Assembly: GCA_902786345.1 (NCBI GenBank)
Contig: CADACB010000002.1
Span: forward strand, 79,470-143,469
DNA: 64,000 nt
Source: an uncultured Ruminococcus sp.
Lineage (GTDB): Bacteria; Bacillota; Clostridia; Oscillospirales; Acutalibacteraceae
Direction: 5' to 3'
The translations under genes and the position numbers were made by a program. Below, in pieces: positions 27,764 through 43,050 of the stretch. Within the stretch, counting starts at the first letter, position 1, and each line of letters opens with the position of its first letter. The notes under the pieces were generated by a model. The model made no database searches, was not told the DNA's origin, and worked only from the letters and a program-made list of their open reading frames with translations.

Positions 27764-28646
27764 ATGTTTAAAAAAATAATAGTTTTTTTAATAAGTTTGG
27801 AGTAATTGCAGTTTTTTCTTTTCTGCTTATTACCCTTTTTTCTGTTGGCTGTTCAGATAATGAAAATCAGGATATGAGCCTGAAATCTGAAATCAATACT
27901 TCTGAGAATAAGAATGGTGATAGTGTTGAGGAAGAAGATTCAATGGGTTATATAGACAGCGGAAAATGCGGTGACAATGCTGAATATACGATTTATAATG
28001 ACGGAGTTCTGACAATAAGCGGAAAGGGTGATATGTGGGACTTTAAGTATTTTTATTCAAATAATAAAGAGTATCCTTGGAATCCCGATATGATTAATTC
28101 TGTTGTTATCAAGGATGGGATAACCTCAATCGGTGAGCATTCATTCAATTCAAGCATATTATCTTCTGTTACTATTCCCGGCAGCGTAAAAAAATAGGAA
28201 AATCAGCCTTCTGGAACTGCAAAAATCTTGAATCTGTTAAAATACCTGACGGAGTAAGTGAAATATATGAATGTGCTTTTCAGAATTGTACTGCACTCAG
28301 ACATATCACCTTGCCTGACAGTATAAAGCTGATAGGTAAGGAAGCATTCAGCAAATGTACGGTTCTGGAAAATATTGATATACCTGCCGGTGTAACAGAA
28401 ATAACCGAACGTTTATTTGAAGGCTGTGAAAGTCTGACAAGCATAACTATTCCTGACGGAGTTAAAGTTGTAGGTTGGAGGGCATTCTGTAATTGTAAAT
28501 TACTTGAAAATACAGCTATACCTGAAAGTGTGACAAATATAGGGATTGATGTTTTCAAAAACGACAATAATGTTATGCTGCTTGTAAAGAAAGGTTCATA
28601 TGCAGAAAATTATGCAAAGGAAAATAATATATCATTTACAGCCTGA
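27764..28646 (+). pseudogene. Frameshifted BspA-like leucine-rich-repeat lipoprotein
   Basis: Three frames join into one protein. ATG 27764 gives MFKKIIVF and shifts at a run of seven T (27783-27789). The next frame continues the signal peptide to lipobox LFSVGC, then an LRR_5-type region, and stops after a run of seven A (28188-28194). The third frame continues with four LRR_5 units (IGKSAFWNC, EAFSKC, RLFEGCESL, RAFCNC) to 28646. One extra base in each run restores a single frame of about 294 residues. This is a real double mutation, slippage-based switching, or base-calling error. RBS CCGGAG. Confidence 0.8.
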
Positions 28647-28987
28647 TCAGATTATTTAATATAATACATTATTTATTAAATATTTTATTGTGAGTTTTGA
28701 TATAAATTTAATATAAAATAATATTTTTTTATTCATATTTACAAATTAATAAAAAAACAGAACAAATGATAATTTTAATTCATCTTAATATCAGAATGGT
28801 AAAAATTTCATATAAATTTAAATAAGGAGGTATATTTAAAATGGAAATAAATATACATAAAGATATTATTCACCATTTTATTATTAAGAGGGAATAGTTT
28901 TTGACATAGAATCAGAATTACTGAAAAATATTATCATAAAACTAATAAAATTAAATTTATTATCAAGATGCAATGGAGGAAATTAAA
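28647..28987. other. AT-rich spacer with a possible broken small ORF
   Basis: Mostly A/T sequence with no clear structure. From 28841 a reading frame of 18 codons (stop 28895-28897) has a strong AAGGAGG 10 bases upstream. A single-base insertion near 28895 would extend it to 28986. No similarity is recognised. Confidence 0.35.
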
Positions 28988-29359
28988 ATGAATAATGTCA
29001 AGACTTCAAAAAAATCTATTTCTGTTAAAGCAGCAGCATTAGTGCTTGCATTGATTTTCAGTACCATCATGTTATGTTCAGGATGCGGAAAACAGGATCC
29101 TATGGAAACATATTCGGGAACATGGGTAGGAAGTGCCGGAACAACATTTTTACTCAGATCAAACGGTACTGTAAGAGCAACACAGCCTAAATGGAAAAGT
29201 GCAGCGTCAGGTACATGGAGCATAGACGGAGATCGCTTGAATATAGAAGGAGTTTATAAATATCCTATTTATGCAAGTATAGCTGATTCTAAGGATACAT
29301 TGATTTTTGAGGCTAACAATTCAAAATGGAATGTTGAAACATTTACAAGATCAGAATAA
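28988..29359 (+). CDS. Small lipoprotein with a lipocalin-like domain
   Basis: Signal peptide with lipobox MLCSGC. The roughly 95 remaining residues have the pattern GTWVGSAGTTFLLRSNGTVRAT...GTWSIDGDRLNIEG, typical of small extracytoplasmic beta-barrel domains. ATG 28988 is preceded by GGAGG; the in-frame ATG at 28973 overlaps that site and is rejected. About 123 residues. Convergent with the sigma-LRR gene. Confidence 0.7.
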   Translation: MNNVKTSKKSISVKAAALVLALIFSTIMLCSGCGKQDPMETYSGTWVGSAGTTFLLRSNGTVRATQPKWKSAASGTWSIDGDRLNIEGVYKYPIYASIADSKDTLIFEANNSKWNVETFTRSE

Positions 29360-29450: not shown

Positions 29451-31814
29451 TTAATCTGTAACATCTATGACTTCATAGATATTGCCTTCATCGTCAATTT
29501 CATAGATAATATTATCGTCATCATAGACGGGATCATCTATTATAACTTCTTCATCAGTGAGATCTTCTTCGGGAACTTCTTCCGGAGGAATATATCCTTC
29601 ATCAGGAAATATTGCTTCAGGATCGGTGAAATAAACATAATTTTCGTCCTCGTGATCAAATATAAACTGACTGCTTTTCAGTATTGATTTTTTAAGTTTA
29701 TCTGTTGTTTTTGTATCTTTGCTGTTTTTAGGAAGCAGAATATTTTTGATTATATGTCTTACTGTTGTGAATGCATCGGGCTCTATTTCAGTAACAGTAT
29801 CGGAAATATATAAATTCTTTATTTTACCGTAATAATCGTTATCATCATCATCAACAAAGATCTCAAACTCGTTTGTCCTTAGCTTTTTCATTCCATCAGG
29901 AATATGAAAATTTTCTGCAAAGGTACCTATTATTATATGTGATAATCCATTAATAACCATACCGTTAGGAATAGTTGTATCATCAAAAACGGCATTCTTA
30001 TTTTCAAGTTCAACATATAGCTCAGGTATATTTGCGATCAGAGAATCTGACCAACTGTTATAATGGGCATTGTTGATGACATCGCCCTGAATTATGAGAT
30101 GTACAGTATTTGCAGGTGGAATAGAAAAATCAATATCTGTTATTGCTGAAAGCTCATCAAGCTCTACACCTGAAAATGCATAGGGGTCCAGTCTCATTAT
30201 GCCATCGGGCAGGACAAGTTTCTTTATTGGACAGTCACGAAAAGCAAGATCGCCTATTTCTATTACGTTTGGAAACAGCTCTCTCATATTAAGTTCTTTT
30301 ATTTTGCATCCGCCAAAGGCCCTATCCCCTATACGAGTTATATTTTTTCCACCGGTTACAGTTTCTATATCCGTATCCTCAAAGCATCCGTTGGGAATAT
30401 ATTCAAGCATTTCAGGAAGCTGAACAGATTTTATATGACTATTGGCTGTTGTCGAAAGAAAGTTATACATAATTCTTGTAACAGGAATTCTGTTTCCTTC
30501 ATATTCTATATAAGATGGAAGAACAATATCAGATGGAAAATCAGAAATTTCCGGATAACCAAAATAATTAGTCAGCATTGCTTCGTTATTTTCAGTATAT
30601 ATTCTGAATCTCATACTTTGGTCATCCGAATAAATGTCAATATATTTATCATAGCGACGCGGTTTTGATTTAGCTGTTTCAGTTATGTACACTATGCTTG
30701 GTTCGGCTTCACGAACCACTTCTCTGTCACGGTAAACAACACTTGTATTGCCGTCACGATAAACAATGCTCGTTTCACCGTCACGATAAACAATGCTTGG
30801 ATCTCTGTCACGATAAATGATACTTGGTTCCGAATCCCTGTAAACATATACAATACTAGGTTCGTTATTGGTTATTATTGAGTTATCAGATGTTTGTATA
30901 TCGGTTTTATCACTGCTTTCCGGTTCAGCAGCTTCGGCAACTGATGAAGACTGCTCATTGTCCGGCGGCAGACTTATAGGACTGAAATTTGATGAAGTGA
31001 CGCTTACACATACTGCAATAGAGGCGGCAGCGGCAGCCACAGAAATCTTGGTTGCTGAGGAATTGGATATGGTAGTGCTGAAAGCAGCAGAAACTCCTGT
31101 TGACATTGAATTTACGGCTGTGGGGACAGCTGATGTTACACTTTTTTCAAATGTAGCTGATTGAGAAAGAAGTTGACGAATTACTTTGCTGAGATTGTTG
31201 AGAATATTGTTGGTATGAAGGTTGGTTCCGCTTTTCTTTTCATATGCTATTATTTCCTTACGGAGTTTATTTTTTGCGGTAAATAAGCGGCTCTTTACTG
31301 TTCCTACATTTATTCCGAGTGAATCCGCAATTTCATTATAGGACATTTCTGCGTAAAAATACATAATTAGTAACTGAGAATATTTTTCGGGAAGATTTTC
31401 TATAATTGAATATAAAAGTCTGTTATTTTCAATATGATCTAATTTTTGGTGAGGTATATCGTTTATGTTTTCGGAATTACATTTTCTGAGTAAAGCTTCA
31501 AGTTTTTCATCCTCATCATAGGGTATTGCAGTGTTTTTATTTTTTCGGAACAGCATTTTACACTCGTTTACTGTTATGATACGAAGCCATGATGAAAATG
31601 AGTCGGTGTTTTTGAGATTGTGAATATTTTTGAATAATTTAATAAAAACCTCCTGAGTAACATCCTCGGCGTCCTGTTCATTATTCAATATAAATTTTGC
31701 AGCATTATAAACTTCAGCTCTATGACGTGAGATGATAGCTTCAAGTGCATCCTGATCTCCGCTTTTAGCCAATTCAACTAATTCGTTAGTTGTTGGCTCT
31801 TTAGTATTATCCAT
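29451..31814 (-). CDS. ECF sigma factor fused to a membrane segment and an LRR domain
   Basis: One 787-residue frame. Residues about 25-90 are sigma-70 region 2 (DAEDVTQEVFIKLFKNIHN, DSFSSWLRIITVNECK). Residues about 135-185 are region 4 (LPEKYSQLLIMYFYAEMSYNEIADSLGINVGTVKSRL). A membrane helix lies at 256-273, then a Ser/Glu linker and five repeats of the type (E/D)xSIVYRD (319-376). From 440 to about 710 is a BspA-like LRR_5 region, and the last 50 residues are very acidic. If the helix spans the membrane, the sigma part is inside and the LRR part outside. Known ECF factors are usually soluble and held by a separate anti-sigma protein. RBS AGAGGTGG. Target genes unknown. Confidence 0.88.
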   Translation of the reverse strand: MDNTKEPTTNELVELAKSGDQDALEAIISRHRAEVYNAAKFILNNEQDAEDVTQEVFIKLFKNIHNLKNTDSFSSWLRIITVNECKMLFRKNKNTAIPYDEDEKLEALLRKCNSENINDIPHQKLDHIENNRLLYSIIENLPEKYSQLLIMYFYAEMSYNEIADSLGINVGTVKSRLFTAKNKLRKEIIAYEKKSGTNLHTNNILNNLSKVIRQLLSQSATFEKSVTSAVPTAVNSMSTGVSAAFSTTISNSSATKISVAAAAASIAVCVSVTSSNFSPISLPPDNEQSSSVAEAAEPESSDKTDIQTSDNSIITNNEPSIVYVYRDSEPSIIYRDRDPSIVYRDGETSIVYRDGNTSVVYRDREVVREAEPSIVYITETAKSKPRRYDKYIDIYSDDQSMRFRIYTENNEAMLTNYFGYPEISDFPSDIVLPSYIEYEGNRIPVTRIMYNFLSTTANSHIKSVQLPEMLEYIPNGCFEDTDIETVTGGKNITRIGDRAFGGCKIKELNMRELFPNVIEIGDLAFRDCPIKKLVLPDGIMRLDPYAFSGVELDELSAITDIDFSIPPANTVHLIIQGDVINNAHYNSWSDSLIANIPELYVELENKNAVFDDTTIPNGMVINGLSHIIIGTFAENFHIPDGMKKLRTNEFEIFVDDDDNDYYGKIKNLYISDTVTEIEPDAFTTVRHIIKNILLPKNSKDTKTTDKLKKSILKSSQFIFDHEDENYVYFTDPEAIFPDEGYIPPEEVPEEDLTDEEVIIDDPVYDDDNIIYEIDDEGNIYEVIDVTD
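30687..30860 (-). repeat. Coding repeat (E/D)xSIVYRD, five or six copies
   Basis: Degenerate units of about 9-10 codons encode EPSIVYVYRD, EPSIIYRDRD, PSIVYRDGE, TSIVYRDGN, TSVVYRDRE and EPSIVYI. They lie between the membrane segment and the LRR domain and probably form a stalk. Confidence 0.8.
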
Positions 31815-31846: not shown

Positions 31847-31874
31847 ATTATATCATATTTTGTCAGAAATTCAA
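31847..31874 (-). promoter_or_regulatory. Promoter for the sigma-LRR gene
   Basis: On the minus strand TTGAAT (31874-31869), a 16-base spacer and TATAAT (31852-31847), with an extended TG before the -10. This looks like a housekeeping promoter. Confidence 0.6.
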
Positions 31875-32043: not shown

Positions 32044-32382
32044 TTAAAAGTTACTTCCGGAATAGCCCCAGGTTGAGATTTCATCATATTTAACATATAT
32101 ACGTGATGGGGATATAGAAAGGGTATCTGAAATAATTTCCGTGATCTTGGCTGTGAGTGCGTCATAAGCACTCCGGTCTGCCTTTCCGTAAAGCATAACC
32201 TCGCTGACAGCACACGGCTCATCACTTCCCTTGAAATACATTCTGCAATTATCTTCAACTTTCACCATAAGCCACGCTTCACTCTTTCTTATAAGAGTAA
32301 TTGCTTGTCCAAGCTCTGATTTGATTTTTACCTCTTCTTCCCTTGTGATTGGTGTGCTTGATTGAATTCTGATAAACGGCAT
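32044..32382 (-). CDS. Tautomerase of the MIF family
   Basis: About 112 residues with MPFIRIQSS at the start, so Pro becomes the N-terminal catalytic residue after Met removal. Later it has the family pattern SEAWLMVKVEDN and SRIYVKYDEI. ATG 32382 has GAGG 8 bases upstream; starting at the GTG at 32391 would bury the proline. Substrate (such as phenylpyruvate) is inferred only from family. It follows the ABC pair on the same strand. Confidence 0.85.
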   Translation of the reverse strand: MPFIRIQSSTPITREEEVKIKSELGQAITLIRKSEAWLMVKVEDNCRMYFKGSDEPCAVSEVMLYGKADRSAYDALTAKITEIISDTLSISPSRIYVKYDEISTWGYSGSNF

Positions 32383-32422
32383 AAATTTCACCTCATAAAT
32401 TAATTTTTATACAGAAGGCTGT

Positions 32423-35168: not shown

Positions 35169-35192
35169 GTAATTGTATAAATATAAGTGGGA

Positions 35193-35221
35193 GAATGCTT
35201 TAATGCGGACTAAAAGCATTC
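35193..35221 (+). promoter_or_regulatory. 5'-leader hairpin of the pilin operon
   Basis: A 9-bp perfect stem (GAATGCTTT 35193-35201 with AAAGCATTC 35213-35221) ends four bases before the AGGAGGAG ribosome site. It may affect translation or mRNA stability; no ligand is suggested. Confidence 0.5.
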
Positions 35222-35238
35222 AAAAGGAGGAGTTAACA

Positions 35239-35763
35239 ATGAGTAAACGTCTGAGGAAAAATATTCCTAAGCTCAAATCCAAAAAAGGTCTTACTCTTGT
35301 CGAGATTCTTGTGGGCGTAACTATTATTGTAATAGTTTTCGGTGCTACTCTCGGTGCAATGACGCAAGGCTATACCAACACTCTTTACAATGCTGATGAA
35401 AACAAATCAGCTGCTTTGAGTAAGTCAATCAACGACTCTATTATGGAAGCGGTTGTAAGACAGGGCTTTAAAAGTCAGACAGAATGTGAGAATTATTTCT
35501 TTGGCGGAGGAAAAAGCCCTAATTCAGATTCTTCAAATGCAGTTCATTCAGCAGCGGTTGCTATTGACAGCTCTGTTGAATATGTACCTTATGCATCGTT
35601 TCCGGATAACAGCAAGGACTGTCAGTATACAATAAAAACAGACAGTATCAGCACTGTAGAAGGAACAGGAAGCAATGTTAGTATGGGATATGTTCTGATA
35701 CAGACAGCAACTAAATCAGCAAAGGGTATGCATATAAATACAAGCTATGTTCCCTATTATTAA
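35239..35763 (+). CDS. Type IV prepilin-like protein 1
   Basis: A basic leader KLKSKKG is followed by LTLVEILVGVTIIVIVFG, the type IV prepilin cleavage site and transmembrane helix, with cleavage expected between Gly17 and Leu18 and Glu at mature position 5. The rest of the protein has a small number of Cys and an SYVPYY end. ATG 35239 has GGAGGAG 8 bases upstream. First gene of a three-pilin operon. No prepilin peptidase, assembly ATPase or platform protein is in this window. Confidence 0.85.
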   Translation: MSKRLRKNIPKLKSKKGLTLVEILVGVTIIVIVFGATLGAMTQGYTNTLYNADENKSAALSKSINDSIMEAVVRQGFKSQTECENYFFGGGKSPNSDSSNAVHSAAVAIDSSVEYVPYASFPDNSKDCQYTIKTDSISTVEGTGSNVSMGYVLIQTATKSAKGMHINTSYVPYY

Positions 35764-35776
35764 CAGGAGGTCGCAT

Positions 35777-36412
35777 ATGAAAAAGAAAATAATCTCCAGA
35801 AAAGGCTTTACGCTTGTTGAACTGGTAGTTACGATTGCGATTCTCGGAATGGTAAGTATGATGGGAATCGGAATAGTTGCTAATTCTATAAAAAACTATT
35901 CTACAGCATCCGTAACATCAGGAGAACAGGATACGGCACTTGCAATAGAAAATTTTATTGTTTCAGCTGCTAAAAAGGCAACTTCATTCAAACAGGTAAA
36001 CCCTTCCGATGTTCCTGAGGGAAATAATATCAAGGCGTGGTATATAGCTTCTGATAACGGAGTTATAAAAACCGTTTCAAATATTGTTGATAATTCCGGA
36101 GATGCTCCTGTTGTTACAACAAGGGAATTCAAGGGAGTAAACAATATTGAATTTACACTCAGAAAACAAAAAAAATCAAAGACTGATTCTGTTAACAACG
36201 CATATGTGTGTCTTGATTATGTAATTACAATGACAGAAGGATATGTGATTAGGGGTTCTGTTGTTGTAAGCGGTATACCATCAAATTATGATATGACCGG
36301 TATAGACAGTAATTCATTCTCTGATACAAACGATCCTATAATTATAAGCACTAACAGTTCGGCTGCAGTTGCTCTTTATGGAAAAGTGTTTGGCGTTCAA
36401 TCGTCAAGCTAA
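35777..36412 (+). CDS. Type IV prepilin-like protein 2
   Basis: Starts MKKKIISRKGFTLVELVVTIAILGMVSMMG, with cleavage between Gly10 and Phe11 and Glu15 as mature residue 5. The rest is a soluble domain of about 175 residues. AGGAGG upstream supports ATG 35777; an earlier frame start lies inside the preceding gene. It begins 13 bases after that gene. Confidence 0.87.
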   Translation: MKKKIISRKGFTLVELVVTIAILGMVSMMGIGIVANSIKNYSTASVTSGEQDTALAIENFIVSAAKKATSFKQVNPSDVPEGNNIKAWYIASDNGVIKTVSNIVDNSGDAPVVTTREFKGVNNIEFTLRKQKKSKTDSVNNAYVCLDYVITMTEGYVIRGSVVVSGIPSNYDMTGIDSNSFSDTNDPIIISTNSSAAVALYGKVFGVQSSS

Positions 36413-36447: not shown

Positions 36448-39400
36448 ATGAAGCAAACAACGGTAAACAAGAGCAAAAAAGGCTTTTCGCTGCCTTTGGC
36501 AATTGCAATAAGTGCTTTTATGATTCTTATATCGTCATCTCTTATATTTATAGCAATGAACAGCTTGTCTACAACAAGTTCAGATGTAAGCGGCAGACAG
36601 GCGTATATGAATGCAAAAAGTGCACTTGAATATGCAAGAGTTTATTATGAAAAGAACGGAAATTATTCAAGCATTGGTACGCAGTATCTTATTATGAAGG
36701 ACAGCGGCGGCTCAATTTCACAAGGCGCAAGAATAGATACAAACGATAATGCAACAAAAAATGCAACAACTTATGTTATAGCTGAATATAAATCTGCAGA
36801 AGGAAACGGTTTTGCAACGCTTAAGCTCCGTGCTTTTTCTAAGTATTCAGATGCATTCGGCAATAAAGCAAAAACAGCTTCGGTTTCAGGTACATTTATA
36901 ATAGGAGGAACAAGGCCCCGCAGACTGACTGTTATTGCACGTGATCAGAATCCGAGAACTTCTCAGATTTCTGATAAGATTACGTTGAATGTAAAACAGC
37001 CAAAGGATATGAACTACCAGCTTTCTTATTATGTATGGACATATAAGGATCCTGAGCGCGCATATCAGAATTATAAAGAATCAAACGGCGACAACAGCTT
37101 TGAGTATGACTATCATGTAAATGTTGATAAGCTCAACGCTGCAACAATGAAAAATAATATAGTAATGCCTAACGGTGTATGGGCAGCCGGCGGAGACGGT
37201 AAGCAGGGACCTCCGGCTATAATGTCAAAAACAAGTTCAAATAACTCATGGATCAGCGGTGACTATGTAATCAGAAAGAACCGTGTGCCGTGGTTCAATA
37301 TTATCTTCGCTCAGAAGGGTTCTGTTCTCGGTAATTCAGTTTCAAATATCTATAATTCACAGACTAATGAGATGTTCCATCTTTGGTATCTTGATCCTGA
37401 TGATAAGAACATTTATTTTGAGTTTACAGGCAAGCTGCACAGTTCCGGCGGTGTAAACTATTATACAAAATATTACACAGGTAAGAACTGGAACGGCAAA
37501 GACGGTCTTGAAGATACGGTTCTTGTTTATGTAAAGAATATGAAGACCGCAGTGCATTTCAAAGAATATGGTGTTGATAACAAGAAAACAGGTGAACCAT
37601 CTGTTCCGGCTTCTCAGCGTCCTGTGATCTCCAGTGTTGTAAATCACGACGGATCAACAATAAATACAGGCTCAAAGAGTTATATATATTCAGGTCAGAA
37701 TAAGAAAAATAATAATATTAAGATGGAATATGAAGGCTGCGGCTGGTATGTTGCGAATGTTGAAACAAATAAAACGTTTGATCTCGCAATACGTTATAAG
37801 AACCAGAATTATTATACACCAAACGGTGTATCACCCAGCACACAGGACGATACCTGGATTGTTTTAAGAGACGGTTCTCTGAATGTTTATGCAACAGAGA
37901 AAAGTGCGATTGAAAATGGTTTGAAAGCATATACCGAAGAAGATAAAAATAATAATCTTGGAGTAGACGTTAACGATTATGTTACAGTACACGCAAAGGT
38001 TGCAGATTATTCAAAGGGTGCAAATCCGAAGCTTTCCTACTCAAGCGAATCATGGAACTCTTCAGCAGGTATGATTAGACTTCGTAATAAAATAGTTGAA
38101 GTTTCTGATGTTAATGAGGCGGATTTTACACCGGAATCTTATCAGAATTTCAAGACAGCTGTTGACGAAGGAATTACAATTCTTAACACAGAGAACTTTA
38201 TAGTAAATCAGACGGGTTCAGATTATGAAGAGAAGATGAAGAATGCCAATAAAGCATATGATGAGGCTGTAGACAAGATCGTTAGAGCATTCGAAAAACT
38301 AGACCCAGTCGATGCAAGCCCTGAAGTTGTTGGTGTACTTGACGAGCTTGTAAGGAAGGGTAATGACGTTGTTGCTGAGCAGGAAGAAAAAGGTACCTAT
38401 GATTATACAGTATATGTAAGCTTCATTGCTAACAGCTCACCTTATAAAGTAGCTAAAAATGCCCTTGAAAATAATAGTGATTTAACTGCATCAGAAGTAA
38501 CAACAATGACTGAAAATCTCAGAAGCTCTCTTGATAATATTTATGCTAATACACTTAACAGACTGGTGCTTGGCGGTTATATTACAAAAGCAGAGTCTAT
38601 GGTAAATGACAGCAAATATAAGCAGGCTGCAAGAACTACACTTTCTTCAAAGCTTAACAATGCAAAGAATGTGTATAATCAGCTTAATATTTCCCAGTCA
38701 ACTATCAATGATGCAGCAGATGAACTTCTTACACAGATCAATCAGACAGAAGCTGCACTTGAAAATCCGCTTAACCTTGATGTGCTCAATGAGCTTCGTA
38801 CACAAGCACAGGAAAAGCTTAGCGGAGAAAAAATTAATTGCACTGATCAGACATATAACGCTCTTCAGACTGCATACAACAATTCAAGTAATGCAAGCAG
38901 TGCACAGAATCAGCAGAAAATTGATGAATATGTAAACGACCTCAGCGATAAGCTTGATAAGTTTACTGTAACAAAACCGGAAACATCTAATGATTATCTT
39001 GCACAGCAGAACAAGATCAAGGTTTGGATAGTTAATAAATCCGGACTTGCTTATGATTTTTATAAATATGCTAACAGTGATGATGAGCAGCCTAATGTAG
39101 AAACCTCTATTGATATGATGACGGCAGCAGGCTACAACTATTCTGAGCTTGATAAAAACCTTTATACACTTGTTGCTATCAAACTGACAAAGGCAGACGG
39201 TTCAACTGTACTTTCAGATCCTTTCTATTTCAGCGATTCAGCTGACGGTAACCTTGTTATAGTGATTGATGAGGAAGGCAATGTTACAAAGAGCACATTT
39301 ACAACAGTCTTCTTCCCTGCAATTCAGGGCGGTATAACAGCTTCTCTCAACAACGGAGGAACTCCTGTTGAACCGGTTTATGAGGCTCCTTATTATGTAT

Positions 39401-42400
39401 TCAGATACCTTACAACAAATAATGACTTTAAGGTAAATGTAAAATGGACAGATGCATCGGGAACAACTCATGATGACAGCTATCCAATGGGTAAGCTCAC
39501 AGCAGGCGAATTTGTTGCAGTTCCCGGAAATCCAAATACAAACACACCTTCTGTAAACGTTGCATCTGTATATCCGAAATATAACAATTCTAACCCTGAA
39601 TCTCCTGCGCCGGGCGGAATTGTTTATAATGGTGATGATTATCAGATAGTTGACGTGGCAACATCATATGCAAATTATGTTCCTGGCGTTACAGTAGGTG
39701 AAAATCAGACTTGTGTAATTCTTGACTCATCAGGTTCAGCTTCGGGTATTCTCAGTGAAGGTTATCCCAGAATCTATGCGTGGGATCACAGTGGTAAGCC
39801 AATGGTAGGCAATAACTGGGACGCAAGACCTGAAATGAAAAAGTCAAGCAATCCTCAGTATTATTACTATGTATTCAATAATAATTTCAAGGGCTTGAAG
39901 GTAACAAAGAAATATAATGATTTCTCTGCTCAGGATATAATTGTAAGAGCTAACAGTTATGATCAGACTTATAAATATGTTCTTCTTACCTCAAAAGCAA
40001 CACCGGGTTATTTTGATGTCTGGAAAGAAATTTCGACCAGCACAAGTGATGACAGTTCTATAGACACAAGCCAGAATCTTACAACAGTATTTGGTGATAT
40101 TGTGCTGGGAGCTAATCAGTCGGTTATCATAGTACATTGTGTAAGTGAGGCTGCAGGTCTTACTAATGCAGGGCAGGCACCGAAGATCTATTGCTGGGGT
40201 GGCGCTGCCGGTGGTACGCTGGGTGCAGGTTGGCCCGGACAGAGTATGATTAAATATAAGAACACTAACTACTACTATCACGTTGTAAGCTCTGAAGTCA
40301 TAGGTTGCAAAGTTAACTACCAGAGCGGAGCACATTATTCAGGCGATGGTGAAAGTAATAACATTAACCTCAGAGCTTCAAGCGAAGATCATTATAAGTA
40401 TTATCTTCTTGAGCCTACAGGCAGCGGACATAAGTTCAATGTAAATAAACGATCATATGACAATGCTCCTGTAATTGATGATACACCTGAGGATCTTGCT
40501 CCCGAAGATATGGACGGTACAGAGCTTTCGCTTCGTTACGTTGGCGGCACTAAAGTTCGTATCCAGAATATGGGTTATTATAAGATATTTGGTTCAGGTA
40601 AAAAGACCAACCACTTTGGCTGGCCAATGAACAATAAGGCTCTTTCAGGAACTGACTCAAGGTATTATGATAATAGAATGGATAGCGAAGGCGGCCCCGG
40701 CGGATATATGTTTGGTGGAGATCAAGGAAACGCTTGTTCTGATGGTCGTATAGGTGCATCCGAGCTTTCAGCATACTATGATTGGTATGAATATAAGATA
40801 CCTGTAGCTAAGGAAACAGATTACACATTTGAGCTTACAGGTATGAATGCTAATGATCCGAACAGAAAGACAGTTCAGATCAAGGACGCATATGGAGACA
40901 TATGGATTTCACAGCTTGATAATTCTACAAAGTCAGGCGGCAGATATTCCAACATAGAGCTTCTTACTTTTGATCCGGAAGATGATACAAAACCGGCTAT
41001 TACTGAAAAGCTTGCTGTTTACTTCAGAATGCCTGAAGGATGGTCAAATCTTGTTATTGAAGCACACGGTACAGGCGGCAATGATACAAGAACATTGACT
41101 GAAAGTAATCGTCTTACAAGATCCGGTAACCAGAATATCTATGCTATTACAAATATTTCAAAGAATACACCGTTTATTACCTTCAGAGTAAAGGACGCAA
41201 GCGGTAAGGATCAGGTATATAAAACATCGCTTCGCGGCGGCTACTTTACCAAGTTTGATCCTATGGCTAATGGCGGAAATGGTGATTGGGTTGAATTCCA
41301 GTCAGACCAGGATGCTCTTCAGGAAGCACTTAAGACTGTAATGGGTATGTATTATGGTGATGTTATAATCTCACAGTATGATGAAAACGGTGAGGTTGTT
41401 GATCGCGGTGAGGACTCATATTTCTATTCAGATCAGCTCAGACAAAGCTTCATAAGTTATGCAAACAAAATAAACAGTAATGGCGTTGAATTTTATCAGC
41501 TTAAATCTGTTGAGGGTGAATCTGAAGTCAGTGCTTATAATGCTGCAACAAACATTAACAGGATAATTAATGAGTACAAAGATTTGTTCAAGGCAATGGG
41601 CGATGCAAGAGGATTTATCAGTTCACCGATTGTAAACGGAAAACACCCTGCATATACAAACAGCAAATATCCTGAATATCTGTCTATGAATACAGCAAAG
41701 AGCTATACAACTGCTTCTATGACAACTCTTAAACATCGTTTAGAAGATGCTGAAAATGCTTATATATCCGGCGATGAAAGTACTGTAGTGGCTGCTACTA
41801 AAAAACTCAGACGTGCAATAAGCGAAATGTCAGTTGAAGATGTCGGCGAAATAGCAGTAGTTCTTTATGATGCACAGGAGAAGGTATCAAAGGGCACAAG
41901 TTTCAAGATCAGATATAAGGATTCTCCAACAGGAAGTTATATAACTGTTCCTGTAACAGATAAGAATCCGGAAAAATTCCCGATCATATTTATAAAGACC
42001 ACTGCATCTGAAAATGCTATTTATGATGTTCAATTCCTGCAAGGATCGGATAACGTACCTCTTGGTTCACCTAAGGATAAGATAACCAAAGACGATGAAG
42101 CTATGGTATTTGTTGATACACAGGAAAATCCTTATTGGATAGTTAACTCTGCAGAGGATTACAGAGATATACATGCAACTGAAATTGAGCAGGAAAGCAG
42201 TTCTGATACCATGGTTTACAAAATGAAAACTGTAGCAGGTTCGCTTAAGACAATGATTCTTAATTTCCATTATGATGTAGAGGTTACACGAATCAATGGA
42301 ACAAGCTATGTGATAAAAGCAGGTGAGTACTCTTTTGAAAACGGAGACTCAGGTCCGATGTCATCAGGTTCATTAGATCTGTTCAGCAGTGCTGCGGAAG

Positions 42401-43050
42401 CATATTTCACAAATAGTAAAAACTACGGTTATTATACAGAAAATGTTACTACAGCACAGAATATGAAGTGGTATTATGATTATGAAACCGTTCCTGATAA
42501 TCAGGATCCCGGATTTAAGAACGGTTCAAACAGAACGGCTGTCAGAAACGTTAACTTTGAAACATTTGATGATATGGCTGCAATAACCAAGAGCTATCCA
42601 TACGAATACAGTACAACTCAGGGTCTGAACTTCAGATGGAGTGCTCAGGAAGAGTTAAAGGCTACTTCAAAGGTAACACTTACAGCAGAGTCTATCAAAT
42701 TTGGTGTTAACGGTGGTATAGTGAATGGTGTAGTCGGTAAGGGAACAAACAGGTCTTCGGGTAAGAATATGTTCCTCTTTAACAAGATTGGTTCTGATAC
42801 AATGGATATTGAGTTCCTTACTGATGTAACTGTTGTATATTGGGAAAATGGTGAAGAAGTTACATTCCCGATTTATGCCGGCGAATATACCATTGAAAAG
42901 GAAGATCCGAATCAGGATTACATTGCTAATCTCTTTGATAAACATTATTGGAAGAGTATGGAGCATGTATTCCCAAAAAATAACTCTAATGGTAACATCG
43001 GTCATTCAACAGGCAAGTCAAATCTTGTAAATCCGACCTACGATGACTAA
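36448..43050 (+). CDS. Giant pseudopilin-adhesin
   Basis: 2200 residues. The start SKKGFSLPLAIAISAFMILISS is a prepilin signal with cleavage after Gly12, but mature position 5 is not Glu, as in GspK/PilX-type tip pilins. Behind it are a beta-rich region, an alpha-helical region of FIVAR-like repeats (about 555-850), two tandem CBM26-like modules (about 1090-1180 and 1225-1325: YPRIYAWDHSG and APKIYCWGG...WPGQSM), another helical region (about 1625-1800), and two related modules near the C-terminus (FHYDVEVTRINGTSYVIKAGEYSFE and FLTDVTVVYWENGEEV...AGEYTIE). I infer a pilus-tip carbohydrate-binding adhesin. RBS AAAGGAG. Third gene of the operon. Confidence 0.8.
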   Translation: MKQTTVNKSKKGFSLPLAIAISAFMILISSSLIFIAMNSLSTTSSDVSGRQAYMNAKSALEYARVYYEKNGNYSSIGTQYLIMKDSGGSISQGARIDTNDNATKNATTYVIAEYKSAEGNGFATLKLRAFSKYSDAFGNKAKTASVSGTFIIGGTRPRRLTVIARDQNPRTSQISDKITLNVKQPKDMNYQLSYYVWTYKDPERAYQNYKESNGDNSFEYDYHVNVDKLNAATMKNNIVMPNGVWAAGGDGKQGPPAIMSKTSSNNSWISGDYVIRKNRVPWFNIIFAQKGSVLGNSVSNIYNSQTNEMFHLWYLDPDDKNIYFEFTGKLHSSGGVNYYTKYYTGKNWNGKDGLEDTVLVYVKNMKTAVHFKEYGVDNKKTGEPSVPASQRPVISSVVNHDGSTINTGSKSYIYSGQNKKNNNIKMEYEGCGWYVANVETNKTFDLAIRYKNQNYYTPNGVSPSTQDDTWIVLRDGSLNVYATEKSAIENGLKAYTEEDKNNNLGVDVNDYVTVHAKVADYSKGANPKLSYSSESWNSSAGMIRLRNKIVEVSDVNEADFTPESYQNFKTAVDEGITILNTENFIVNQTGSDYEEKMKNANKAYDEAVDKIVRAFEKLDPVDASPEVVGVLDELVRKGNDVVAEQEEKGTYDYTVYVSFIANSSPYKVAKNALENNSDLTASEVTTMTENLRSSLDNIYANTLNRLVLGGYITKAESMVNDSKYKQAARTTLSSKLNNAKNVYNQLNISQSTINDAADELLTQINQTEAALENPLNLDVLNELRTQAQEKLSGEKINCTDQTYNALQTAYNNSSNASSAQNQQKIDEYVNDLSDKLDKFTVTKPETSNDYLAQQNKIKVWIVNKSGLAYDFYKYANSDDEQPNVETSIDMMTAAGYNYSELDKNLYTLVAIKLTKADGSTVLSDPFYFSDSADGNLVIVIDEEGNVTKSTFTTVFFPAIQGGITASLNNGGTPVEPVYEAPYYVFRYLTTNNDFKVNVKWTDASGTTHDDSYPMGKLTAGEFVAVPGNPNTNTPSVNVASVYPKYNNSNPESPAPGGIVYNGDDYQIVDVATSYANYVPGVTVGENQTCVILDSSGSASGILSEGYPRIYAWDHSGKPMVGNNWDARPEMKKSSNPQYYYYVFNNNFKGLKVTKKYNDFSAQDIIVRANSYDQTYKYVLLTSKATPGYFDVWKEISTSTSDDSSIDTSQNLTTVFGDIVLGANQSVIIVHCVSEAAGLTNAGQAPKIYCWGGAAGGTLGAGWPGQSMIKYKNTNYYYHVVSSEVIGCKVNYQSGAHYSGDGESNNINLRASSEDHYKYYLLEPTGSGHKFNVNKRSYDNAPVIDDTPEDLAPEDMDGTELSLRYVGGTKVRIQNMGYYKIFGSGKKTNHFGWPMNNKALSGTDSRYYDNRMDSEGGPGGYMFGGDQGNACSDGRIGASELSAYYDWYEYKIPVAKETDYTFELTGMNANDPNRKTVQIKDAYGDIWISQLDNSTKSGGRYSNIELLTFDPEDDTKPAITEKLAVYFRMPEGWSNLVIEAHGTGGNDTRTLTESNRLTRSGNQNIYAITNISKNTPFITFRVKDASGKDQVYKTSLRGGYFTKFDPMANGGNGDWVEFQSDQDALQEALKTVMGMYYGDVIISQYDENGEVVDRGEDSYFYSDQLRQSFISYANKINSNGVEFYQLKSVEGESEVSAYNAATNINRIINEYKDLFKAMGDARGFISSPIVNGKHPAYTNSKYPEYLSMNTAKSYTTASMTTLKHRLEDAENAYISGDESTVVAATKKLRRAISEMSVEDVGEIAVVLYDAQEKVSKGTSFKIRYKDSPTGSYITVPVTDKNPEKFPIIFIKTTASENAIYDVQFLQGSDNVPLGSPKDKITKDDEAMVFVDTQENPYWIVNSAEDYRDIHATEIEQESSSDTMVYKMKTVAGSLKTMILNFHYDVEVTRINGTSYVIKAGEYSFENGDSGPMSSGSLDLFSSAAEAYFTNSKNYGYYTENVTTAQNMKWYYDYETVPDNQDPGFKNGSNRTAVRNVNFETFDDMAAITKSYPYEYSTTQGLNFRWSAQEELKATSKVTLTAESIKFGVNGGIVNGVVGKGTNRSSGKNMFLFNKIGSDTMDIEFLTDVTVVYWENGEEVTFPIYAGEYTIEKEDPNQDYIANLFDKHYWKSMEHVFPKNNSNGNIGHSTGKSNLVNPTYDD

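Follow-up and report, generated by a model that had tools for sequence, protein, structure and literature searches.

We describe a gene in a 64,000-nucleotide stretch of contig CADACB010000002.1 (the window), from an uncultured Ruminococcus sp., that encodes in a single polypeptide an extracytoplasmic function (ECF) sigma factor, a predicted transmembrane (TM) segment, a repetitive stalk, and a leucine-rich repeat (LRR) domain of the BspA type. The same fusion recurs in orthologs and in a large group of paralogs, and candidate ECF promoters stand before several fused genes as well as before genes linked to them. The interpretation that we favor, and to which we give a moderate probability, is that the protein is a surface receptor and transcription switch in one piece, released by proteolysis and driving promoters of the form GAAC-N17-CRTCTTWA.

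The gene (29451-31814, minus strand) is one uninterrupted open reading frame (ORF) of 787 amino acids (aa) with an ATG start and a good ribosome-binding site upstream. The original prediction, made from the sequence alone, had placed sigma regions 2 and 4, a hydrophobic segment, a stalk, and LRRs in the same frame, and this order is borne out; Pfam matched Sigma70_r2 (whole-protein E 3.5e-16), Sigma70_r4_2 (E 3.1e-14), and LRR_5 (PF13306; 63.3 bits against a curated cut-off of 27.7, E 2.7e-17). Both sigma regions are present and a region 3 family is absent from the Pfam matches, which is the layout of an ECF sigma factor. The general model TIGR02937 scored 109.7 bits against a cut-off of 42.9 and was the sole NCBIfam model over its cut-off among the 25 listed of 110 matched. 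Among PDB sequences, the sigma part best matched SigW and the LRR part 4fs7. The LRR domain had been called BspA-like and long; the type holds and the length does not, the best Pfam stretch being 93 aa. No Pfam family was found in aa 551-787, and the final ~50 residues are strongly acidic. The stalk that follows the hydrophobic segment is likewise acidic and carries the anticipated YRD repeats, which at the DNA level form a 27-bp tandem repeat in ~4 copies. Counted by eye, the window protein has five YRD units, the G007 ortholog four, and the G008 ortholog one, so that stalk length seems to be evolving fast. The view that no separate anti-sigma factor is needed also agrees with what was found, in that Pfam revealed no anti-sigma domain in the window protein or the eight neighboring ORFs scanned. 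At E values up to 0.1, a FecR-like domain had no match in any of these proteins, nor a zinc-finger family in the window protein; a fused anti-sigma of either type was rejected on this ground.

The hydrophobic segment, which had been claimed at residues 256-273, was located at aa 257-275 (19 residues, Kyte-Doolittle mean 1.81). Averaged over 49 fused proteins, the 15 residues ahead of this segment contain 2.0 Lys/Arg and 0.1 Asp/Glu, and the 15 residues following it 0.7 and 2.0, respectively; net charge is higher before than after the segment in 48 of the 49 and equal in one. This asymmetry argues for a probable single membrane span in the window protein with the N terminus inside and the C terminus outside, and it is consistent with the predicted combination of ECF sigma factor, single span, and outside LRR in one polypeptide. 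The linker before the segment is rich in Ala/Ser/Thr/Val and carries little charge. A post-region-4 segment, approximately E-K-K-x-G-x-K-L-Y-S and then hydrophobic residues, occurs in 62 of the 72 fused sequences described below and in 3 of the 47 soluble ones, as judged with a regular expression that was composed after the fused alignment had been inspected. Structure prediction, which had been suggested as a check, gave a confident sigma part and did not settle the remainder: in an AlphaFold (AF2) model of aa 1-300 built from ten aligned sequences, the predicted local distance difference test score (pLDDT) was 81-96 over the sigma2/sigma4 block and below 50 over aa 208-285, which comprise linker and hydrophobic segment. 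A single-sequence model of the ectodomain was unusable (mean pLDDT 38.8). The segment might, alternatively, not span the membrane at all, leaving the whole protein in the cytoplasm with an LRR that binds an intracellular partner. Its Ala-rich composition, its modest hydropathy, and the want of a confident AF2 model would fit this idea, which we nevertheless judge very unlikely because 48 of 49 divergent members keep a hydrophobic segment with this charge asymmetry, some of these segments reaching a hydropathy of 2.9, and because the LRR proteins in partner operons have lipobox-like signal sequences.

Relatives of the sigma domain were sought in 61 of the 64 genomes of the genus (G643-G645 lay outside that set). 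Full-length orthologs of the fusion are encoded in G007, G008, and G039 (49%, 51%, and 48% identity, respectively) and are stop-free over nearly their whole length. The proposed search for ECF-TM-LRR architectures returned, in addition to these three, dozens of paralogs with the same plan; many long stop-free relatives exist in the genus, and some genomes hold several copies. The fusion is therefore frequent there, contrary to the original prediction, which had regarded it as uncommon. The possibility that a sequencing error joined two genes, which that prediction had raised, is very unlikely because the three orthologs and many paralogs encode the same fusion, and artefact or chance joining was rejected for the same reason. 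The host genome contains nine Sigma70_r2 matches, and, by open frame, the window gene is the only one of them with such an extension (792 aa; the next longest frame is 384 aa). At E values of at most 1e-17, 30 of 200 genomes in a sample of the family gave a match, and all 34 listed matches lay in open frames of 327-1303 aa, part of them unconfirmed as TM fusions (L160 was classed as soluble; L161, L162, and L163 are unclassified). In a class-wide sample of 391 genomes, most of the matches listed were soluble factors of ~200 aa; long frames occurred among them in other families too, seven of which (L148-L154) were classed as TM fusions. Three sigma ORFs of 1049-1078 aa from other families of the class (L144, L145, and L146) also have long C-terminal extensions; no clear TM segment was seen in the stretch tested, and they possibly represent another kind of fusion.

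A sigma-domain tree was built from 119 sequences, 72 fused and 47 soluble, after nine unclassifiable ORFs, L144-L146 among them, had been dropped; a protein counted as fused if its extension was at least 150 aa long and held a segment of hydropathy above 1.5. Quick maximum-likelihood analysis placed all 72 fused sequences in one clade of 74 with a Shimodaira-Hasegawa-like approximate likelihood ratio test (SH-aLRT) value of 89, a moderate support, in a tree that is a sample, since the soluble sequences were collected by similarity. The two sequences labeled soluble within that clade are L023, a copy with an in-frame stop, and L067_S_221. The fused/soluble label changes three times on the tree, compared with 37.4 times in shuffles. 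As all fused sigma domains belong to a single clade, the ECF-TM fusion probably arose once. Alignment shows sigma regions 2 and 4 to be kept throughout this clade. This conservation bears on a further alternative, that of a surface protein with a captured sigma domain which is no longer active. Such a decayed domain could account for the divergent sigma sequence and for TIGR02937 being alone over its cut-off within the NCBIfam matches listed; we consider it highly improbable, given that both regions are complete, conserved across the clade, and well modeled, and that ECF-like spacing is seen in the promoters ahead of paralogs and partner genes.

The outside parts are more varied. A Pfam scan that covered 40 of the 72 fused relatives found LRR_5 over its cut-off in 26 (27 of 41 with the window protein included), and the outside parts of the other 14 of 41 are without it, L082 with its weak match among them. 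Fused paralogs with differing outside parts also occur in tandem, as three consecutive genes at L074 and as two each at L072, L073, and L078; these arrays of ECF-TM-ectodomain genes resemble receptor arrays.

Candidate target genes lie next to the orthologs. Beside the G007 and G008 orthologs, and convergent with the sigma gene, is an operon encoding an LRR lipoprotein, a membrane protein of 310-315 aa, and a membrane protein of ~150 aa; the G007 operon also encodes a small lipoprotein. By eye, the LRR proteins of both operons start with lipobox-like signal sequences. Both operons have at their start the sequence GCGAACAAAAC-...-CTGCATCTT. The corresponding dyad, GAAC-N17-CRTCT, precedes 6 of the 72 fused genes, compared with 0.37 expected, and spacers of 13-16 and 18-21 together gave one match before fused genes; four of the six dyad-bearing genes had suggested the motif by eye, and the other two, L151 and L157, were new. 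Promoters of the AAC/CGT type, which the original prediction had said should be sought, are thus located before partner genes and before several paralogs.

Within the window the dyad has two matches, at 28760 on the plus strand and at 41863 on the minus strand. The latter lies inside a long ORF of the opposite strand and is probably due to chance. The former precedes a gene for a small lipoprotein that is 32% identical (1.6e-13) to the lipoprotein beside the G007 ortholog. The longer pattern GAAC-N17-CRTCTTWA has two sites in the 2.35-Mb host genome, and the second, on contig C41, stands before a gene pair encoding membrane proteins of 312 and 149 aa, which share 83% and 94% identity with their two counterparts in the G008 operon. 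The partner genes are split over two places in the host, each preceded by a site at most ~235 bp away. The chance that both sites would fall at random within 300 bp before partner genes is ~1.6e-8, with the limit chosen afterwards; the 28760 site was already known from the shorter motif when the longer pattern was set, and the C41 site was new. Furthermore, the 312-aa partner occurs in 3 of the 64 genus genomes (G000, G007, and G008), all of which have the window-type sigma factor (p ~1e-4). The partner was not found in a fourth genome with this sigma factor, G039, which is 74% complete and whose contig ends beside the gene. Motif placement in the host and its relatives fits the GAAC/CGTC trait of ECF-type promoters at these predicted sites. 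Linkage, co-occurrence, and the promoters before paralogs support the view that the window sigma factor itself reads GAAC-N17-CRTCTTWA promoters, as judged from sequence.

Several observations weigh against the interpretation of the window protein given above. Motif sites do not exceed the backward control, numbering 13 against 21 in six genomes and two against five in the host, so that it is their placement alone, rather than their number, that is striking: six of the 13 are at partner operons or fused genes, six are inside ORFs, and one is unexplained. No GAAC-N17 site precedes the window fusion gene, and the disrupted LRR lipoprotein gene of the window is without the site that its G007 and G008 counterparts have. 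The host sites stand ~200 and ~230 bp before their genes, compared with ~50 bp in the relatives, and a motif site in G039 has no evident target. Because GAAC is a general ECF -35 element, another ECF factor of the same cell could read the sites. To these points are added the Ala-rich TM segment with its just moderate hydropathy and the linker, in which no anti-sigma fold that could silence a tethered sigma factor was seen in the ten-sequence AF2 model.

A separate soluble ECF factor as reader of GAAC-N17-CRTCTTWA, with other targets for a genuine fusion protein, would be in keeping with the nine Sigma70_r2 matches in the host, with site counts at or below the control level, and with the window gene's own upstream region, which offers a sigma-A-like promoter in place of such a site. 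We regard this as improbable. The motif, the partner genes, and the window-type sigma factor coincide in G000, G007, and G008; no partner was detected in the remaining 61 of the 64 genomes, one of which, the incomplete G039, has the sigma factor; fused paralogs carry the motif before themselves; and in another group of paralogs, described next, 12 of 36 promoter sites face genes for fused or secreted-looking proteins. As to the window gene's own expression, ECF-promoter autoregulation was not found. The sigma-A-like promoter, TTGAAT and TATAAT, resembles that of the G008 ortholog, which also has TTGAAT...TATAAT, and the gene is probably transcribed from it; several paralogs, unlike the window gene, carry ECF-type promoters before themselves.

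The other group has a promoter type of its own. By eye, the fused genes in G001, G020, G023, and G026 have upstream TRTCC, 15 or 16 bases, and CGTMTATATT. With a spacer of 16 and at most one mismatch, the 64 genomes contain 39 sites (8 exact and 31 with one mismatch), compared with 15 for the backward control; as a spacing control, a spacer one base longer gave 15 matches, all with one mismatch and none exact. We examined 36 of the 39 (G023:C12, G029:C259, and G020:C1 were left out), and 12 of these face a fused gene or a gene for a secreted-looking protein, including seven of the eight exact sites (four fused, three secreted LRR) and five of the 28 one-mismatch sites (one fused, two secreted LRR, two related secreted proteins). 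The remaining 24 comprise 21 sites inside ORFs of at least 150 aa and three with nothing suggestive ahead. Signal sequences were read by eye, as were the LRRs except in L263, where Pfam found LRR_5 and Big_2. The motif was drawn from the four exact fused sites and not from those of secreted proteins. All 12 suggestive sites are confined to G001, G020, G023, and G042, which hold the relevant subclade; G026 also holds it, yet its exact site falls inside an ORF. In G020, G023, and G026, the spacer-15 variant stands before fused genes that belong to another subclade. The type of recognition helix appears to track the type of promoter (GTVKSRL with GAAC, TTVKYYL with TRTCC), a match that is only suggestive because a third helix, GAVKNRL, also goes with TATCC. 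The two related secreted-looking proteins under this promoter, L257 and L261, the former with a C39-like peptidase domain, might contribute a protease to the circuit or be among its targets. The CGTMTATATT-type motif seems inapplicable to the window genome, where a single looser match equaled the control and the full pattern had none, and simple dyad counting on upstream regions returned mostly A/T-rich pairs.

Single elements of this design are known. PF13306 repeats and solved structures with matching sequence, such as 4fs7, liken the window protein to BspA-type LRR surface proteins, which are secreted or displayed at the surface and are not known to carry a transcription domain. Unlike the window fusion, SigI and RsgI are two separate proteins, and SigI is not classed as an ECF factor. 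The SigI/RsgI systems of Clostridium thermocellum do share with the fused family sensing by paralogous sets with divergent outside domains, and they have a trans-wall region and RseP cleavage (PMC12203970, cited, like the papers below, from portions of the text). IutY of Pseudomonas putida (ECF243), which Prc and RseP set free (PMC5411451; PMC8999054), resembles the window protein in having a single predicted TM segment between sigma factor and outside domain. In IutY the domain outside is an anti-sigma domain in the periplasm, and the protein acts together with the TonB-dependent receptor IutA of a Gram-negative cell; the outside part of the window protein consists instead of stalk and LRR. 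The actinobacterial groups ECF52 (SCO4117), ECF53, and ECF48 also have a C-terminal extension with one or more transmembrane segments (PMC5826349, PMC8999054). ECF52, described as exclusive to Actinobacteria, has a proline-rich stretch and an outside binding domain, and proteolytic excision of SCO4117 has been proposed (PMC5826349). Neither the zinc-finger domain of these three groups nor the carbohydrate-binding domain of ECF52 was matched by Pfam in the window protein, which has LRR_5 outside instead. By analogy, the window protein may work like IutY and ECF52 yet without their defining domains. The membrane-fused ECF factors on record in the available portions of PMC8999054, PMC8103513, and PMC10766802 are the Pseudomonas protein, the actinobacterial groups, and ECF36 with an N-terminal TM segment, and no clostridial or LRR form is named in them; IutY is given as the only one with characterized proteolytic activation (PMC8999054). 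The words Firmicutes, Clostridi-, leucine-rich, and LRR were looked for in PMC8999054 without a match, and no description of a clostridial ECF-TM-LRR family was found in the open-licence papers searched. As far as that literature goes, we regard the system as a new variant, its kind being known and its architecture, family, and regulon new, although a group number in the 2021 ECF classification may exist already.

We propose that the ECF sigma part is cytoplasmic and held at the membrane by a single helix, and that stalk and LRR would extend into the cell wall or beyond. Binding of a ligand by the LRR, or a cut in the stalk, would serve as the trigger for successive proteolysis, by an outside protease and then by a site-2 protease in the membrane, and the freed sigma part would direct RNA polymerase to GAAC-N17-CRTCTTWA promoters. 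The predicted targets in the host are the small lipoprotein beside the sigma gene and the 312-aa and 149-aa membrane proteins elsewhere, and in G007 and G008 also the LRR lipoprotein. Release by intramembrane proteolysis appears the likeliest mode of activation by analogy with IutY (Prc and RseP), the SCO4117 proposal, and the cleavage of RsgI by RseP, and because the host genome has three matches to M50 (site-2 protease) over the cut-off, the best at 205 bits. The sigma factor could instead remain tethered and act from the membrane, as ToxR and CadC do, with the LRR altering its activity through dimerization or conformation. No anti-sigma fold is recognizable, and the linker, modeled without confidence as if disordered, may be long enough for the sigma factor to reach RNA polymerase. 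A sigma factor must, however, stay with the polymerase until promoter escape, the nearest characterized analog is activated via RseP cleavage, and M50 protease genes are at hand in the host, so that we hold action without release to be unlikely, if deserving of attention.

The coordinates of the features are collected in Table 1. In the disrupted LRR lipoprotein gene, start, lipobox reading, and LRR part each fall in a different frame, and the breaks lie near T and A homopolymer runs; the cause may be real decay, phase variation, or assembly error. A gene for a MIF-like tautomerase (32044-32391, minus strand) sits immediately ahead of the sigma gene and is read in the same direction, with the sigma-A-like promoter in the gap. 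Elsewhere in the window, a 2200-aa ORF (36448-43050, plus strand) without a Pfam match at 1e-3 directly follows two proteins with N-terminal methylation motifs (35173-36412), a pilin-like cluster.

Table 1. Features of the fusion gene and its surroundings (window positions)
Feature	Position	Strand	Basis
ECF sigma-TM-stalk-LRR fusion gene	29451..31814	-	ORF, Pfam, orthologs
Sigma region 2, aa 28-94	31533..31733	-	Pfam PF04542; AF2 block pLDDT 86-96
Sigma region 4, aa 133-184, recognition helix GTVKSRL	31263..31418	-	Pfam PF08281; AF2 block pLDDT 81-92; alignment
Linker, aa 197-256: post-sigma4 segment, then low-charge Ala/Ser/Thr-rich stretch	31047..31226	-	Post-sigma4 pattern counts; pLDDT
Predicted transmembrane segment, aa 257-275	30990..31046	-	Hydropathy 1.81; N-in charge bias of family
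YRD stalk repeats, 27-bp tandem repeat, ~4 copies	30721..30827	-	Tandem Repeats Finder (TRF)
BspA-type LRR_5 domain, aa 458-550	30165..30443	-	Pfam PF13306, 2.7e-17; PDB sequence match 4fs7
Acidic C-terminal tail	29454..29612	-	Sequence; acidic tails also in L055, L056, L057
Sigma-A-like promoter of fusion gene, TTGAAT-16-TATAAT	31847..31874	-	Read by eye
Predicted target promoter, GAAC-N17-CATCTTAA	28760..28788	+	One of two host-genome sites; aligns with G007/G008 operon promoters
Small lipoprotein, predicted target, ~200 bp after the 28760 site	28988..29359	+	Homology; lipobox-like LCSGCG by eye
LRR lipoprotein gene, convergent neighbor, disrupted in assembly	27764..28646	+	Sequence, Pfam; intact in G007/G008

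Taken as a whole, the fused genes may represent a family of sigma receptors in clostridia, each made as a single polypeptide, that goes back to one ancestral fusion and grew into tandem arrays whose outside domains are exchangeable. Each subfamily would have its own promoter code and would switch on secreted or lipid-anchored LRR proteins of the same fold as its own sensor, remodeling the surface by direct release of the sigma factor without a separate anti-sigma; we advance this broader picture tentatively, at a little short of an even chance. In the clostridial branch an anti-sigma role, if any, must reside in the short linker or the tether itself, and the family comes with a predicted promoter and predicted target genes. 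It thereby poses two testable questions, whether a sigma factor can be silenced by tethering alone, and to what some of the numerous BspA-type LRR proteins on the surface of these bacteria respond. If the proposal is true, one molecule would be both the receptor at the cell surface and its switch for transcription.

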